From a virus, in the IMG/VR virus record IMGVR_UViG_3300006752_003878, positions 1-20,038 of that record: a stretch of 20,038 nt of DNA; one strand, 5' to 3'. Within the stretch, counting starts at the first letter, position 1. Each line of letters starts with the position of its first letter. Below the pieces are notes generated by a model. The model worked only from the letters and a program-made list of their open reading frames with translations, ran no database searches and had not been told where the DNA came from. Shown piece after piece: positions 1,127-19,069 of this stretch. The position numbers and the translations under genes are program-made.

Positions 1127-1996
1127 TTAATAACTCTGTGCTAAACGCCACATCAAGTATTCCTTGCTTTCAATAGGATCATACTTTGCTGGCTCGTCAC
1201 GTAAATTCTGCACAATAGTCCCTGGCTTAGGATCTACAAAATGCGGCATGCTGTAACGTGTTTGATCTATGTGTGTGTTTACTACTCTGTGTTTTGTGCT
1301 AACAAAGTAATCGTTAGTCCAACGCTGTAGTAAGTCGCCAATGTTAACTACAACACCATTTTCTGCATAAGGAACAGGATGCCAATTACCATCTAAATCT
1401 TGTACTTGTAATCCTGGCACATCATTGATTTGCCATAGTAATGTAATAGTTCCGTAATCACTATGTTCGCCGATACGCATTTGGCGTGGTTCAATTTCTC
1501 CTGTGTAAGCAGGATAATGTATAACTCTTGTTGTATTAAAAGGTTCCCGATGCGCGTCTACTAAGGTAGTGCCGCAATCAAGGATATCATCAAACAGTTT
1601 AAGTATACGCAGGGTAAGATCATCTGCAATACGGATTGTTTCTAATGCTGTTTGTCTAAAGTGTGGAATTTCTGTGGGCCATAACGTATCATCCATACGA
1701 GTGTCGTTATAGTTAAAACTTTCTTTCATGTCCTTGGGTGCAGTAGGGTCAACGTTTTCATCACCCACTTTACTATAGCCCAGATTAGTTTCAGACTGAT
1801 AGGGATACTTTAGTTTTGTATCATCATCAAGTTTAAAAAAATCTTTCATACTATGGAACCAGTTGTTCATTGTATGCTGATCTTTTGGTGTAAGGCTATT
1901 AGTAAAGACAGCGAAGCCCACAGTGGTGTAGGCTTCGCGAATCTTATCCAATAATTCGCCGTAACTATTTGTGTTAAAGTCAATTACTGGAATCAT
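1127..1996 (-). CDS. Isopenicillin-N-synthase-type 2OG-Fe(II) oxygenase
   Basis: This is a 289-residue non-haem iron oxygenase of the isopenicillin N synthase / 2-oxoglutarate dioxygenase superfamily. The N-terminal domain starts with the usual IPVIDF. The jelly-roll core carries the iron triad His178-x-Asp180 (GEHSDYGTITLL) and His236 (STKHRVVN). Arg247-x-Ser249 (RYSMPHF) is the usual 2OG carboxylate anchor. All key residues are present, so an active enzyme is expected, but the substrate cannot be read from sequence. The start chosen is ATG at 1996, four bases past the preceding stop, with AGGAAA upstream. An upstream in-frame ATG at 2038 would overlap the binding-protein gene by 38 bases and lengthen the N-terminus beyond the family norm. 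It sits between a purine-type substrate-binding protein and APRT, so oxidation of a nucleobase, nucleoside or related imported compound is one guess. Confidence 0.88.
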   Translation of the reverse strand: MIPVIDFNTNSYGELLDKIREAYTTVGFAVFTNSLTPKDQHTMNNWFHSMKDFFKLDDDTKLKYPYQSETNLGYSKVGDENVDPTAPKDMKESFNYNDTRMDDTLWPTEIPHFRQTALETIRIADDLTLRILKLFDDILDCGTTLVDAHREPFNTTRVIHYPAYTGEIEPRQMRIGEHSDYGTITLLWQINDVPGLQVQDLDGNWHPVPYAENGVVVNIGDLLQRWTNDYFVSTKHRVVNTHIDQTRYSMPHFVDPKPGTIVQNLRDEPAKYDPIESKEYLMWRLAQSY

Positions 1997-2000
1997 TATT

Positions 2001-3071
2001 TTAGTTTCCTGGTACAGTTGCGTTAATGCCTTCAACATAATACATCATTGTGTTGAGGTGTATATCGTCAGCAACAACGCCGTCTGCAAGTTGCAGTTTG
2101 CCAGTGTTGTCTTTGATAGGACCAGTAAAGGCAAAGTATTCGCCTGCTGAGATTGCATCTTTAATCTCTTGAGCTTTTGCTTTTACGTCTGCTGGCATGT
2201 TTGTAAACGGTGCCATCTGTACAGCATCTTCATTCATGTGACCAAAGTAGTCACCTGACTCCCATGTGCCATCCATAACTGCTTGTACACGTGAGATGTA
2301 GTAAGGACCCCAGTTATCAATAGTTGTTGTCAACTGTGCTTTAGGAGCAAATTTAATTTGATTACTTGCTTGTCCAAAACCTAGTTTACCTTGTGCTTGT
2401 GCAGCCTGCAATGGTGCAGGTGAGTCTGTATGCTGTGCAACCATATCACAACCTTCAGCCATCATAACTGTTGCAGCTTGTGATTCTTTGCCTGGGTCAT
2501 ACCATGTGTTTGCCCAAGTAATCATGATCTCAACATCAGGATTCATTTTCTTTGCGCCTAGATAGTATGTGTTAATCTCACGAATAACTTCTGGAATCGG
2601 GAAAGCAGCAACGTAGCAAATCTTATTTGTCTTTGTCATCATGCCTGCAATAATACCTTGTACATGTCTTGCTTGGTACAAACGTAGTCCGTACGAAGCA
2701 ACATTTTCACTTTGCTTAAAGCCTGTGGCATGCTCAAATTTTACATCTGGGAATTCTTTAGCAACTTTAAGTGTACCGTTCATGTAACCAAATGATGTTG
2801 TGAAAATAATGTCTGCGCCATTACGTGCCATGTCACGCATTACACGTTCTGCATCAGGGCCTTCTGGCACACTTTCAACAAACATAGTTTCAACTTTGTC
2901 ACCAAATGCTTCTTCTACTTGCTGGCGACCAATGTCGTGACGATATGTCCAACCATGATCACCGATTGGTCCGACATATACAAATCCGACCTTTACTGGT
3001 TCTGCTGTTGCTACCGTCGCCATGCCTAACATAACAACTGCCGCAAGTGCAATTCTCTTAATAATATTCAT
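2001..3071 (-). CDS. BMP-family ABC transporter substrate-binding protein
   Basis: This is a periplasmic solute-binding protein of the BmpA/Med/PnrA family, whose studied members bind purine nucleosides for ABC import. Residues 1-23 form a clear Sec signal peptide: Lys-Arg, a hydrophobic core, then an Ala-Thr-Ala cleavage site. There is no lipobox Cys, so a soluble periplasmic protein is expected. The mature protein starts KVGFVYVGPIGDHGW, the family's first strand and ligand loop. FTTSFGYMN (about 90-98) and the ATGF segment (about 115-118) are further family landmarks. At 356 residues it is full length. AAGGA lies seven bases before the start. No permease or ATPase gene is in the window, so it would have to dock on a host transporter. 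A full-length secreted ABC binding protein is unusual in a phage and looks host-derived. Confidence 0.9.
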   Translation of the reverse strand: MNIIKRIALAAVVMLGMATVATAEPVKVGFVYVGPIGDHGWTYRHDIGRQQVEEAFGDKVETMFVESVPEGPDAERVMRDMARNGADIIFTTSFGYMNGTLKVAKEFPDVKFEHATGFKQSENVASYGLRLYQARHVQGIIAGMMTKTNKICYVAAFPIPEVIREINTYYLGAKKMNPDVEIMITWANTWYDPGKESQAATVMMAEGCDMVAQHTDSPAPLQAAQAQGKLGFGQASNQIKFAPKAQLTTTIDNWGPYYISRVQAVMDGTWESGDYFGHMNEDAVQMAPFTNMPADVKAKAQEIKDAISAGEYFAFTGPIKDNTGKLQLADGVVADDIHLNTMMYYVEGINATVPGN

Positions 3072-3299: not shown

Positions 3300-4172
3300 T
3301 TATCTCCTGTGCAAATCTAATGTACAACAATGGTGACCACCACCAAGTGTACGACTGTGTGCAAACGGTACAACATAAGACTGTACGCCACGTTTTGCTA
3401 GTTCTTGTTGTAAAACAGGTGTATCATCTATTACAGCAAGTTCTGGATTAATCATCATAAAATTTAACTGTATGTAATTGCTAGCAAATGCTTCGCCTGC
3501 AAAGTTTTTACGTTTTAAATCTTCATTGCCTAACCAAATTACTTCCCAGTCTTTAAAACATTTAGGCAATGTTTCAGGAGTAACTCTGTCTTTGTTAATT
3601 ACAACAAGTCCTTCTCTAACAGGTGTAAACGTACTGTCAATATGAATACCACTGTAAGTTTCTGTTGTTTCTACTGTTAGTTTTGGAAATTGTTCTTGTA
3701 GCCATTCTGCTCCTGCATAGTTGCCGCTAGGACTAATCAAATAAAGCAGTGTGTCATTTAGTCTGCAAACGTTTGCTGCATCAAACATAATGCCTTTATC
3801 ACGCGGCACTTTAATAACTTTTGCTTTTTTTAGTACTTCGCTGTATGCATTGATTTCCATTTCTCTGCATGGATACTGCATGTTACAATCTATTACAGTT
3901 TTGCCTACAACAAGTAGGCGATCACGCGGACAGTAATTATACATACCATCACGCATGACAAAGTTTATTTCCCTAGGGCGATAAACCTTTACGCCTTCAT
4001 GTTCAAGCACACGAACGAACTTGTTGAGATCCATCTGTGCTTGTGCAGTGACCTCGCCTCTATATGGACCTGGCTTATCAAAGTGTAATCCTTCGGGCTT
4101 GTTTGCATAAGTTGCATCACCAACAACTACACTTTTAAGTTTGCCCCATTCGTTGTTGCTTGAAATTTTCAT
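3300..4172 (-). CDS. Arginine-type amidinotransferase (AGAT / inosamine-phosphate amidinotransferase family)
   Basis: Family enzymes move the amidino group of arginine to a primary amine: glycine in creatine synthesis, or an inosamine phosphate in streptomycin synthesis. The five-bladed propeller fold is suggested by spaced markers. CPRDRLLVVG (81-90) is typical of the family. Asp131 (MFDAANV), His177 (SGIHIDSTF) and Cys282 (GGGHHCCTLDLHRR, the extreme C-terminus) form the complete catalytic triad, the last motif corresponding to the GGxFHCxT...RR end of AGAT. The 290-residue length is somewhat shorter than AGAT, as in compact bacterial members. Its start overlaps the FolE stop by one base, so the two are translationally coupled. 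The acceptor amine is unknown; candidates are an amino-sugar or cyclitol, glycine, or an aminomethyl-deazapurine. Confidence 0.85.
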   Translation of the reverse strand: MKISSNNEWGKLKSVVVGDATYANKPEGLHFDKPGPYRGEVTAQAQMDLNKFVRVLEHEGVKVYRPREINFVMRDGMYNYCPRDRLLVVGKTVIDCNMQYPCREMEINAYSEVLKKAKVIKVPRDKGIMFDAANVCRLNDTLLYLISPSGNYAGAEWLQEQFPKLTVETTETYSGIHIDSTFTPVREGLVVINKDRVTPETLPKCFKDWEVIWLGNEDLKRKNFAGEAFASNYIQLNFMMINPELAVIDDTPVLQQELAKRGVQSYVVPFAHSRTLGGGHHCCTLDLHRR

Positions 4173-11198: not shown

Positions 11199-12070
11199 TA
11201 GATTAGCTCTAGTTGTTTATGAATCCAAACGTCGCGAGAGAATTGTTCTCTCCAATATATATCATTATATAAGTTATCTAGTGCTGTGTCAACCATTTTT
11301 TCATATGCATCTTCTGGACATAGTCCTAAGGGCTCAGTATGAATAAGGTCACCTTGTTTGAAGAATTCAATATTAATCTTATCACCAACAGGGTTCTTCC
11401 AACTAGTAGTACAAGTATACATATGCCACTCATTGTTAAGCATAATCTCTGCACGATCATCAACATCGTACACACCGTCTTTGTTTACTACACCATAGTC
11501 TGTACTACCAACTGTATCTAGGTCATAGTGTTGATGCTTACTAGATGCATACAAACCTAAACTAGCCCATTCAGGTTCAAACACTTGTACCCAACTTAAA
11601 CAGTGTGGTAGTAAGTCTCTACTTACGCCTCCCCATGCACGATCTTTATCAGTAAACCAACTACCAGGATTTGGCACACGATTGTAATTGTGCCAGTTAA
11701 TTACAATTTCATCACTTTTTCGGGCTTGCATATAAAGTTCTTCAATGTTTGATCTATATTGATTGTTTTTAACCATTGCAAACCGCGTATTAGGAAATGT
11801 ATGCACTAGTGCTTCCCAATCTTCTGATGTACGTAATCCCGGCTTTTCTACAAACACGATCTTACAGTTGCTTGCAATACTGCGAGCAATAGTACCGTGT
11901 GTCCAGTTTGGCGTGCAAATGTGTGCTACATCAAACTCGCCTTCAACTTCTTCAATATCCCAATAGTCAGCAGGTTTGTTTTGATCTACAGTTGTTACAT
12001 TCCATAGTTTACTTTCGTAAATACTTTTGTATAGTTCGCCTATACCCATACCTACTATAAGAGCTCGCAT
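11198..12070 (-). CDS. Gfo/Idh/MocA-family oxidoreductase
   Basis: This NAD(P)-dependent sugar or cyclitol oxidoreductase homologue has 290 residues. The dinucleotide-binding start is ALIVGMGIGELY (3-14). ICTPNWTHG (51-59) is the family's nucleotide-site strand and VEKPG (74-78) carries the conserved Glu-Lys-Pro. GGVSRDLLPHCLSW (about 147-160) corresponds to the GG...D...H substrate region of inositol or glucose-fructose dehydrogenases. The C-terminal beta-sheet domain is somewhat short. It overlaps the transglycosylase stop by one base and the MDR gene by one base. The substrate is unknown. Confidence 0.83.
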   Translation of the reverse strand: MRALIVGMGIGELYKSIYESKLWNVTTVDQNKPADYWDIEEVEGEFDVAHICTPNWTHGTIARSIASNCKIVFVEKPGLRTSEDWEALVHTFPNTRFAMVKNNQYRSNIEELYMQARKSDEIVINWHNYNRVPNPGSWFTDKDRAWGGVSRDLLPHCLSWVQVFEPEWASLGLYASSKHQHYDLDTVGSTDYGVVNKDGVYDVDDRAEIMLNNEWHMYTCTTSWKNPVGDKINIEFFKQGDLIHTEPLGLCPEDAYEKMVDTALDNLYNDIYWREQFSRDVWIHKQLELI

Positions 12071-13569
12071 TATACTTCCTCGAATAAACTAAAGAATTGT
12101 GCGCTACTGTTGACACTCTTTTTGCCAACATGACCTCTTGTGCCAACTACTTTCATCCACAATCTTTGATAGTCATCAATCATTTGTAGTTGCTTATCTC
12201 TGTCATCTATTGTAAAAATGTGTGCAATTACATCTTTTACTTCTGTCTTATCAAATGTATCTTCTACTAGCATATAAGGATATCTGCCTTCATCAAACAC
12301 ACGATTTGCTTCTTGTACACTGCGCAAGTGTGTATACACATTATGATTCATCATTAACATGTAACTAAAACTATCCCAACTTGTGTTTGTTTGTTCGCCC
12401 ATGCGATTCAAACAAGTCGGGCTATAACATGTAACGTCGTTGACTTTCATCATTTGTGAAAGTGGACTAGGCATCCAGTTTTCATATAATGTAGCACAGT
12501 GATCATCATAAGGAGTTGTATTGGCATGTAGTGTTTTGTCATCAGGAGCTCTCTCCATTAAGTAACTCCACTTGCCTTCATTCTCTAGTGTATAACCACT
12601 ATACTGTGTACCATTACTTGTAGCAAGGAACGGACTAGCACAATCAAACGTAACAGTAAAGTTTTCATTAAACTGCTTGCGAATACCTCGTTGTATAGCA
12701 GTAAGTACCATTGCCCATTCTAGTTTACTTGTACCCAAGAAGTGCATTAAATCTTGTTTACCTTTTTCGAGTAATCCGTCATGTCCTAGTGTCACAACTC
12801 TACGTAGTGCTAGATGTACGTCGCACATGTTCTGCCCGCCCATTGCCCAGCCATTAAAGTGTGCATCTGGATACTGCTTAGGATCACTAAAGTGCTTCAT
12901 TTGCTCATACCAGTCATCTGCTTGTGCAAAGTTTTCACCTTGTAGTACGTTTAAGAATTTGCAGTTACCATTACGATTCTTAATAAAGTATTCGTTATTA
13001 AATTTTGTACCATCTGCGGCTTCTTGATATGAACTGATCTTACTTGCGGCACTGCCTTCTGGTGACCTATCTACCCATGCTGGAATATCAAGTATCATTC
13101 CATAGTCCATAAATTCGTCCATCCAGCGTAGCACACCATCACGTTTCTTTTGTGCTTTTTGACAACCACTGCCTGCACGCCAGTCGCCTTCCCACTTTCC
13201 TTTACCAATTTGGAAACCGCCACTATCACCTAACAACCAACTAGTTTCTCTGTTGCGAACGCGGTACATATCTTCTCTGTACAGATCCTTTTCAAGATCC
13301 AAACTAGCATGTCCTGCACTGTGTAGGCTCCAATTGTACTGCCAAAGTCCTTCGGGTGCAAGCCAGTTAAGACTTTCTACACCGTGAGGTAATCCTTGTG
13401 GGATACGAGCAGGATCAATGTAAGGTGTGCCACTGGCTTTTAGATTTTCATCATAAGGCAGTAGACCTCTGCGTTGTCTGCCTACAAACAGTGCATAGAA
13501 TGTACTCAGTGCTGGCAAAAACAAAGCATAGTCATTTTGATTTGCTGTTAGATTAGTTGGCAGTTCCAT
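12070..13569 (-). CDS. dpdA: TGT/DpdA-like DNA 7-deazaguanine transglycosylase
   Basis: Proteins of the tRNA-guanine transglycosylase superfamily exchange guanine for a 7-deazaguanine base; phage DpdA proteins do so in DNA. The superfamily's landmarks appear in order: GDSGGFQ (114-120) with catalytic Asp115; NVLQGEN (207-213) for the VQGG substrate loop; GWAMGG (240-245) for GYALGG; HFLGTSK (276-282) for YLMGVG; FDCASPFLATSNG (308-320) with nucleophile Asp309 for FDCVMPTRNARNG; and CYSPTC (381-386) followed by NHN (408-410), resembling a reduced form of the TGT zinc site. At 499 residues it is longer than tRNA TGT (about 370), with inserts near 50-110. It directly follows the sliding clamp with a TAATG overlap. 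Superfamily is strong; DNA rather than tRNA as the target is inferred from phage context and length. Confidence 0.83.
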   Translation of the reverse strand: MELPTNLTANQNDYALFLPALSTFYALFVGRQRRGLLPYDENLKASGTPYIDPARIPQGLPHGVESLNWLAPEGLWQYNWSLHSAGHASLDLEKDLYREDMYRVRNRETSWLLGDSGGFQIGKGKWEGDWRAGSGCQKAQKKRDGVLRWMDEFMDYGMILDIPAWVDRSPEGSAASKISSYQEAADGTKFNNEYFIKNRNGNCKFLNVLQGENFAQADDWYEQMKHFSDPKQYPDAHFNGWAMGGQNMCDVHLALRRVVTLGHDGLLEKGKQDLMHFLGTSKLEWAMVLTAIQRGIRKQFNENFTVTFDCASPFLATSNGTQYSGYTLENEGKWSYLMERAPDDKTLHANTTPYDDHCATLYENWMPSPLSQMMKVNDVTCYSPTCLNRMGEQTNTSWDSFSYMLMMNHNVYTHLRSVQEANRVFDEGRYPYMLVEDTFDKTEVKDVIAHIFTIDDRDKQLQMIDDYQRLWMKVVGTRGHVGKKSVNSSAQFFSLFEEV

Positions 13570-18231: not shown

Positions 18232-18506
18232 AATCCTGCGGCTACTCCATAACCAAAAACGTTGATACAAGCAAAGTATCCTGTTAGTAACATAATCCAA
18301 GCGGCACCTCTGCGCCAACTTGCATATAATTGTGTTACACTTCCTACAAAAAATGCAGGGTATACCACTAGCATATTGGGATCGTCTGCGTTAACTGCTA
18401 GTGTCAGACTTGCATATACAGTGAATAAGAAACTTATTAGTTCAAAGTAAAATGCAATACTATCACTGCGATAACTGTTTACCCAAAATTGTTTTACACT
18501 GCTCAT
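18225..18506 (-). CDS. Small membrane protein, 93 aa
   Basis: Three hydrophobic stretches are visible: residues about 18-38 (AFYFELISFLFTVYASLTLA), 48-60 and 70-90 (WIMLLTGYFACINVFGYGVAAG), with a charged loop (ASWRRG) before the last. The topology resembles the next gene's protein, and the two may be a pair. The start ATG 18506 forms an ATGA overlap with the nucleosidase stop, which is more convincing than the upstream ATG at 18554. The function is not recognised; a transporter fragment or membrane modulator is possible. Confidence 0.65.
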   Translation of the reverse strand: MSSVKQFWVNSYRSDSIAFYFELISFLFTVYASLTLAVNADDPNMLVVYPAFFVGSVTQLYASWRRGAAWIMLLTGYFACINVFGYGVAAGLW

Positions 18507-19069
18507 AGTACTGACAAGAAGTCCCTTACGCCATTGGCAACATTTTGTTCCCATATGTCTGCTTGATGCGGTGTACCTACATAATCTGTTACATACTTGT
18601 AGCAGTCAAACCATACATTCATACGTTTGCAAACACTTGCAATAGCGTATGCTTCCATATCTACAATATCAATATTGTTATCCACAAGCCACGGTTCAAG
18701 TTCATGTACAAACTGATCACCGGTGCCTACAGTAAGTCCATGCGTCATGTCTGCACTAAACTCTAGATAGTTATAACCTGCTTCAAAAGGTGTAACACCT
18801 CTTGGTGCTTGTGGTTCTGCGTTCATGTCTCGTTGTACAAAACGTGTAACACGATGCAACCCTGTTAGCTCTTTGTTGCAACTACCCGCAGTGCCATAGT
18901 TAACCACACGAGGGTGGAAGCCTAAACTATTTGCTTCCATGATTGCTTGTGCAGTTGCTACAGCAGCGTTGACTTTGCCAACGCCAGTATAGATTACTTT
19001 GTAGTTCTTAGGTGCTTGTTTGTATGGAAGTTCGGCTTCCAGTGCAACTAACAATATGCGATATTGCAT
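18503..19069 (-). CDS. MTA/SAH nucleosidase-like (phosphorylase superfamily) enzyme
   Basis: Enzymes of this family cleave 5'-methylthioadenosine and S-adenosylhomocysteine to free adenine plus a thio-sugar. The protein has 188 residues, about 45 fewer than E. coli MTAN. Visible family motifs: VALEAEL (8-14) with the N-terminal catalytic Glu; YTGVGKVNAA (27-36) for the SGIGKVNAA loop; NYGTAGSC (57-64) for NTGSAGG; GTGDQFV (115-121) for SGDAF; VDMEAYAIASVC (136-147) with Glu139, which contacts the ribose; and YVTDYVG (159-165) with Asp162, the adenine-protonating residue. It could remove inhibitory SAH after methylation and free adenine for the APRT at 607-1125. It starts directly after the DsbA-like stop. 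Confidence 0.85.
   Translation of the reverse strand: MQYRILLVALEAELPYKQAPKNYKVIYTGVGKVNAAVATAQAIMEANSLGFHPRVVNYGTAGSCNKELTGLHRVTRFVQRDMNAEPQAPRGVTPFEAGYNYLEFSADMTHGLTVGTGDQFVHELEPWLVDNNIDIVDMEAYAIASVCKRMNVWFDCYKYVTDYVGTPHQADIWEQNVANGVRDFLSVL

Follow-up and report, generated by a model that had tools for sequence, protein, structure and literature searches.

We have analysed a 20,038-base virus record from a metagenome-derived collection (IMG/VR record IMGVR_UViG_3300006752_003878, ~39% GC), which we call the window, and which carries a gene for a binding protein of the BMP family directly followed by genes for an oxygenase and for adenine phosphoribosyltransferase. The features of the window to which we refer are these:

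2001..3071, minus strand: BMP-family protein, predicted to bind a purine base, with a Sec-like leader; 356 aa, ATG start; PF02608, matches to 3s99 and AtzT, AF2 model
1127..1996, minus strand: 2OG-Fe(II) oxygenase of the isopenicillin-N-synthase (IPNS)/thymine-7-hydroxylase (T7H) type; 289 aa; PF03171, PF14226
607..1125, minus strand: adenine phosphoribosyltransferase (APRT); 172 aa; NCBIfam PRK02304.1-5, 173.7 bits (cut-off 125), PF00156
4172..4855, minus strand: GTP cyclohydrolase I (FolE); PF01227, E 6e-37
18503..19069, minus strand: MTA/SAH-type nucleosidase; PF01048, with NCBIfam nucleosidase models at E 3.9e-23, below cut-off

The ORF at 2001-3071 is a real and intact gene whose product belongs to the BMP family, the PF02608 'PnrA-like' profile being matched over residues 26-297 (E 5.7e-53, 180.3 bits, cut-off 24.1). 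Its ATG is preceded by a Shine-Dalgarno-like AAGGAA, and the protein begins with MNIIKRIALAAVVMLGMATVATA and then EP, a stretch in which a positively charged start, a hydrophobic core and an Ala-x-Ala end appear Sec-like by eye; the protein is probably exported. Residues 1-20 are of low confidence in the AF2 model (pLDDT 88). The first-pass annotation had described a full-length BMP with an intact Sec signal peptide, of which the full length is borne out by the profile match and the leader stands as a likeness judged by eye. Selection on the gene is strongly purifying, with dN of ~0.09 and dS of ~0.9 against the nearest relative and dN/dS of 0 to 0.06 in close phage pairs. The GC3 of the BMP gene is the same as that of the phage polymerase gene (0.31 in both) and its codon-position GC is in line with the remaining genes of the window. 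A promoter scan gave no excess of promoters, and terminator-like sites numbered 5 against 3.2 expected.

The window also encodes a family-B phage DNA polymerase (phrog_262, E 2e-194). In a scan of viral contigs we have found 264 stretches that encode relatives of the BMP, the best 80 of these 264 at 74-87% identity, and the order FolE-AmT-BMP-2OG-APRT recurs in contigs of other metagenomes such as L002, L010 and L013 (in full for L002, o13569-TGTlike-o9046-o8598-o8314-UGDH-o5485-DegT-FolE-AmT-o3118-BMP-2OG-APRT-ORF_315). Records of 178, 198, 316 and 328 kb carry the BMP gene together with T4-type gp23 capsid and terminase genes, and among the viral records bearing BMP/2OG gp23 was detected in 4/17 and terminase in 6/17. 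The BMP gene is carried by genuine phage genomes, many of them of large marine phages. The window is a fragment of 20 kb and its source collection was built from metagenomes, so that we had to consider contamination with bacterial DNA or a chimaeric assembly; the first-pass annotation had named chimaerism as a finding that would overturn its reading. It is excluded because the same gene order recurs in other metagenomes; the co-occurrence with gp23 and terminase, the phage-like GC3 and the phage-specific BMP clade described below also argue against it, and we give this explanation practically no credence. Megablast of the window retrieved no isolated phage, and at the search sensitivity used a BMP gene of this type has no counterpart among the isolated phages of INPHARED. 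The BMP matches in that collection (identity of 40% at most) came from only 14 unannotated 'Bacteriophage sp.' records and were set aside as phage evidence, 13 of the 14 being from human faeces and probably bacterial DNA. These faecal contigs (MT835546-MT839956) look like bacterial sequence within a phage collection.

The true ATG of the oxygenase is at 1996, 4 bp past the BMP stop, the listed ORF start being too far upstream and the MIPVID start being conserved in relatives; APRT starts 1 bp after the end of the oxygenase gene. The three genes had been described at first as a compact nutrient-capture unit, and this order does hold in the window, but the conserved unit is the pair of BMP and oxygenase and not the trio with APRT. 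Oxygenase genes occur in 77 of the best 80 of the 264 BMP loci, usually 0-6 bases from the BMP stop, whereas APRT homologues are present in 11/19 records. The search for the trio in metagenomes that had been proposed as a check likewise returned the adjacent pair, with BMP directly upstream in 57/67 oxygenase-centred loci and the oxygenase directly downstream in 53/68 loci centred on CHAB-I-5-like BMPs, and APRT in part of the relatives. A T4-like lineage (G688) has the BMP without oxygenase and without APRT, and the downstream steps are therefore not obligatory.

The surroundings of the pair vary: it lies after FolE, after a ThyX-like gene, beside APRT, IscA-like and polB genes, or near PstS-like and Rieske genes (several of these labels come from Pfam and others, ThyX-like included, were given by eye from the sequence). 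FolE, a shared neighbour in the phage group of the window, is upstream of BMP in 15 of the best 80 of the 264 loci. In one phage group, genes for a Rieske-type ring-hydroxylating oxygenase and PstS-like genes are close to BMP or BMP-2OG (L015:1664-2755 and L023:4967-6088), possibly as a wider nutrient-capture island. The 198-kb record L314 has the order FolE-like-BMP-2OG-APRT-adenylosuccinate synthetase; this last gene (L314:7903-9624) is full-length (PF00709) and belongs to a PHROG family named for 2-aminoadenylosuccinate synthetases, and its motif WGDEGKGK looks PurA-like rather than PurZ. In another phage record BMP-2OG-APRT is preceded, at a distance of a few kb, by an IMPDH/GMP-reductase family gene (L344:527-1675). 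Several phages frequently encode, next to BMP-2OG, a 297-aa class-II tRNA-synthetase-like protein (PF00152; L056:11690-12583 and a further 20 loci), and in L062:5810-8000 the pair is followed by another, distant member of the BMP family (25% identity). In the window itself, the 290-aa product of 3300-4172 has its sole match in PHROG 25854, of unknown function, is of amidinotransferase/arginine deiminase type by eye, and is encoded just upstream of BMP only in the phage group of the window. The 499-aa product of 12070-13569 is tRNA-guanine transglycosylase/DpdA-like by eye, with no Pfam, PHROG or NCBIfam match; together with FolE, and with the QueD/QueE-like genes that relatives carry close to BMP, it may belong to a 7-deazaguanine modification pathway. 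The nucleosidase at 18503-19069, which has no relative among the best 80 of the 264 viral loci, could release adenine in the cell and feed APRT, a functional link that is possible.

The structures nearest to the window BMP by phmmer are 3s99 (E 1.6e-118) and AtzT (E 3.5e-103), and 3s99 was also the best fold match of the AF2 model in Foldseek (TM 0.89/0.96, 52% identity). The nucleoside-bound BMPs match it far less, with E values of 3e-18 for guanosine-bound Lbp and 1e-7 for pneumococcal PnrA, and the fold matches to nucleoside receptors (PnrA, BmpD and Lbp) are at 16-25% identity; its closest similarity is accordingly not to the PnrA-type nucleoside receptors. AtzT contains guanine and 3s99 contains adenine, as modelled (PMC6834077). 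The AtzT base site is a Tyr45/Trp194 sandwich with contacts from Ser97, Phe98 N, Glu165, Asn218 and Asn220, and its affinities are 0.11 uM for guanine, 2.5 uM for adenine and at least 620 uM for pyrimidines (PMC6834077). The direct pocket positions W45, S97, F98, E165, W194, H218 and D220 (AtzT numbering) are identical to those of 3s99, 7/7, in 119/119 distinct phage sequences. Phage BMP thus shares with AtzT (PDB 6pi5) and the Brucella protein 3s99 the fold (TM 0.89-0.90, 48-52% identity), the aromatic sandwich and the Ser-Phe and Glu contacts, with H218 and D220 as in 3s99. The window BMP probably belongs to the purine-base subgroup and not to the nucleoside one, its most likely ligand being a purine base, adenine or a close relative; adenine is preferred over guanine because of the match to 3s99 and the APRT gene next door. 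The first-pass annotation had proposed a purine-type protein for nucleosides, and given these structures and this pocket 'purine' was right and 'nucleoside' probably wrong.

The phage proteins also differ from AtzT and 3s99, since those serve ABC importers whereas the phage BMP is encoded without ATPase or permeases, and since 11 positions are fixed in phages and have another state in sampled bacteria except CHAB-I-5. A further difference lies in the second shell of the pocket, where E165 of the window protein corresponds to AtzT position 169 (Asn169, hydrogen-bonded to Asn218). This position is Glu, instead of Asn or Gly, in all phages and in the CHAB-I-5 strain SB2, and Gly (89) or Asp (26) in the other sampled bacteria. 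Asp169 is confined to Gammaproteobacteria, in which 19/26 Asp BMPs have an adjacent 2OG gene; Gly was found in 53, 0 with 2OG. Position 169 hints at a slightly different ligand for oxygenase-linked BMPs, and as Glu there is unlike the sampled bacteria outside CHAB-I-5 the ligand may not be plain adenine. The association between an acidic residue and the oxygenase may represent as few as two evolutionary events.

The HxD...H iron triad and the Arg-x-Ser for 2-oxoglutarate are intact in the phage oxygenases, with H177, D179 and H235 present in 197/197 phage rows and R246 in 194/197, the remaining 3 being gapped. The nearest PDB entry is 5c3p, Neurospora T7H (sequence E 1.9e-28, predicted fold TM 0.88), an enzyme whose substrate, a free base, is sandwiched by Tyr217 and Phe292 (PMC4787775). 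Equivalents of T7H Arg190, Tyr194, Tyr217, Phe292 and Glu122 are kept, as are the metal, 2OG and base-stacking residues, and Y180 and F252 (T7H Tyr217 and Phe292), R156 and E91, numbered on reference sequences that begin at 1993 (Ile2), are invariant across phage and gammaproteobacterial members. On the other hand, identity is ~30%, T7H is a fungal pyrimidine salvage enzyme, and T7H Asn294 is Asp in the phage enzyme. Among 385 Alphaproteobacteria searched, full-length identity to the oxygenase was 39% at most, and no cellular donor could be named.

A separate counterpart of the phage pair exists in Pseudomonas, Vibrio and Oceanospirillaceae, where a BMP gene is also followed by one for an IPNS-type 2OG oxygenase. 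More generally, bacterial BMP homologues adjoin ABC genes and xanthine dehydrogenase, or ABC genes and a Pa0148-type adenine deaminase. In Pseudomonas segetis (L091), BMP and 2OG share their cluster with ABC genes, with an 8-oxoguanine-deaminase/AtzB-type amidohydrolase and with a close relative of 3ou8 (E 9.5e-191), the structure of Pa0148. Pa0148 deaminates adenine (Goble 2011, as cited in PMC6281700). In clusters of this type the oxygenase directly follows BMP and has 30-34% identity to the phage enzyme, but the bacterial ones add an ABC pump and deaminases, a catabolic outlet, while the phage ones have APRT or other anabolic genes. These gammaproteobacterial operons would provide separate support for a purine role of the oxygenase. 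Our reading is that a purine would be oxidised by the phage enzyme, perhaps with loss of an N-methyl group, and oxidative clean-up of modified purines is our leading guess for its function.

The best bacterial match to the phage BMPs is strain SB2, the best-known representative of the pelagic Roseobacter lineage CHAB-I-5, with 74% identity to the window and 84.5% to phage L238. In the sampled remainder of its family the best BMP match is 59%, and the SB2 protein itself is only 56-59% identical to Roseobacter BMPs. Its gene is placed after XdhB-like and XdhC genes, an ATPase and two permeases, and the ATPase, permease and XdhB are closest to those of other Roseobacter-group bacteria (roughly 67-81%) with no match in any viral locus. 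A phylogeny against host BMPs, which the first-pass annotation had suggested, recovered a phage clade with the CHAB-I-5 protein inside it. In this tree, with 52 phage rows, SB2 is nested in a 23-row clade (100/99) next to L238 (100/88), and phage monophyly appears in 0% of bootstrap trees and is rejected at p 0.032. In an earlier, sparser tree CHAB-I-5 lay near the base and phage monophyly was not rejected (p 0.476); when nearer phages were added it moved deep inside the clade. In view of this shift in p the exchange is likely and not proven. SB2 has the phage state at 11/11 phage-diagnostic positions, which are invariant among phages and take another state in the other bacteria. A phage-type BMP thus sits within a bacterial ABC operon, and it likely replaced the receptor of CHAB-I-5 itself inside an otherwise Roseobacter operon; the direction of transfer could change with unsampled bacterial donors, and the p value is modest. 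The two large phage records nearest to the SB2 BMP are without gp23 or terminase matches, although other genes of the window type are recognisable by sequence in at least one of them (L285). After BMP, SB2 encodes a Rieske protein together with an oxygenase subunit of the VanA_C type (L082:9266-10875), reminiscent of purine N-demethylases; this pair is present in the four genomes of the genus and not in the other loci compared. The papers on CHAB-I-5 isolates and phages do not mention purine uptake. The T7H-like nature of the oxygenase, its pairing with BMP in gammaproteobacterial purine operons and the CHAB-I-5 exchange are all absent from the first-pass annotation.

PstS, as encoded by marine phages, is an exported binding protein with no transporter partners of its own, and has to pass its ligand to an ABC importer of the host. 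The phage BMP had been likened to it from the start, as a protein that would have to work with a host transporter, and our data agree with both statements: no permease or ATPase partner is recognised in the window, the BPD_transp_2 permease (PF02653) was found in 0/17 viral records (~2.1 Mb in all, records possibly incomplete), and the CHAB-I-5 ATPase and permeases have no match in any viral locus compared. In phage L023 a PstS-like PBP_like_2 gene even lies near BMP-2OG. The difference is that PstS takes phosphate while phage BMP would take an organic purine base and is linked to an intracellular oxygenase and salvage enzymes. The phage-type BMP in the CHAB-I-5 operon argues that phage BMP probably works with a host pump and, if the replacement is true, that phage-type BMPs are compatible with a Roseobacter one.

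All these data suggest, as the best explanation and one that we consider probable, purine uptake through a host transporter that feeds phage nucleotide synthesis. Judging from its leader, BMP would be secreted by the infected cell to the periplasm, where, from the identity of its pocket, it would catch a free purine base, adenine or a close relative. The absence of pump genes from the phages and the CHAB-I-5 operon suggest delivery of this base to the BMP-type ABC importer of the host. The linked oxygenase, probably co-transcribed, would then oxidise an imported or derived base, likely a modified one, and APRT, an NCBIfam equivalog, would join adenine and PRPP into AMP. The net effect would be more adenine nucleotides for an AT-rich phage genome of ~39% GC (CHAB-I-5, if it is the host, has 51%; PMC12075776). 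Prochlorococcus exudes free adenine and guanine, and marine heterotrophs use purines (PMC11698098). As adenine inhibits the growth of SAR11 and lowers its DNA content (PMC11698098), a benefit for the phage is not self-evident in every host.

A refinement of this explanation, rather than its opposite, is that the true ligand is a modified purine such as an N-methylated adenine or guanine, which BMP would import and whose substituent would be removed or altered oxidatively before salvage. It is favoured by the oxygenase being the most constant neighbour of BMP, with a separate counterpart in Gammaproteobacteria, by its nearest structure being a free-base enzyme whose base-site equivalents are kept, by the acidic residue at 169 that goes with it, and by the Rieske/VanA-type pair after BMP in CHAB-I-5. 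Nevertheless, the association with residue 169 may rest on two events only, CHAB-I-5 has Glu169 without 2OG, and enzymes of the T7H/IPNS fold have very varied substrates, and we consider this refinement quite possible but short of probable. The broader proposal that a two-gene route of purine catcher and free-base oxygenase supplies modified purines, and that a phage-evolved BMP was taken by CHAB-I-5 in place of its native receptor, is advanced tentatively and we regard it as somewhat doubtful.

T7H being the top match by sequence and fold, the oxygenase could also hydroxylate thymine, in which case the cassette would serve nucleobases in general, with BMP and oxygenase each acting on a base of its own, and thymidylate genes do occur at several loci (ThyX-like directly upstream of BMP, by eye, or thymidine kinase). 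We find this unlikely, since identity to T7H is only ~30%, an AtzT-like pocket binds pyrimidines very poorly and the oxidation of thymine would cost an AT-rich phage a base it needs. Changes to the host surface are common in phage infection, and BMP could have a non-nutritional role in sequestering periplasmic purine, shielding the cell from growth-inhibiting adenine or blocking another phage or a surface receptor. The decrease in DNA content and growth caused by adenine in SAR11 (PMC11698098) would fit with this, but the linkage to APRT and other purine enzymes and the phage-type BMP within a bacterial ABC operon point to transport, and we hold such a role to be very improbable.

Phosphate is the main nutrient for which phages are known to control uptake by the host. 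A search of the open-access literature (subscription papers and preprints were outside its scope) found no report of a phage BMP or of a phage BMP-oxygenase pair; a phage-borne binding protein for a host ABC importer is known, and the system described here would be a variant with a purine base and an oxygenase partner, and with a probable passage of the binding-protein gene to CHAB-I-5, a major marine bacterium. In the present case the uptake that seems to be steered, by marine phages of a widespread group, is that of a nitrogen-rich organic compound which also serves as a DNA building block, and this ties viruses into the network of purine cross-feeding known among ocean microbes. The putative nucleobase oxygenase paired with BMP is a concrete target for enzyme discovery. 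Finally, the CHAB-I-5 case, if true, would be a rare one of a phage metabolic gene moving into a bacterial transporter and replacing part of it, and with it one can test directly if a phage receptor functions with a bacterial pump.
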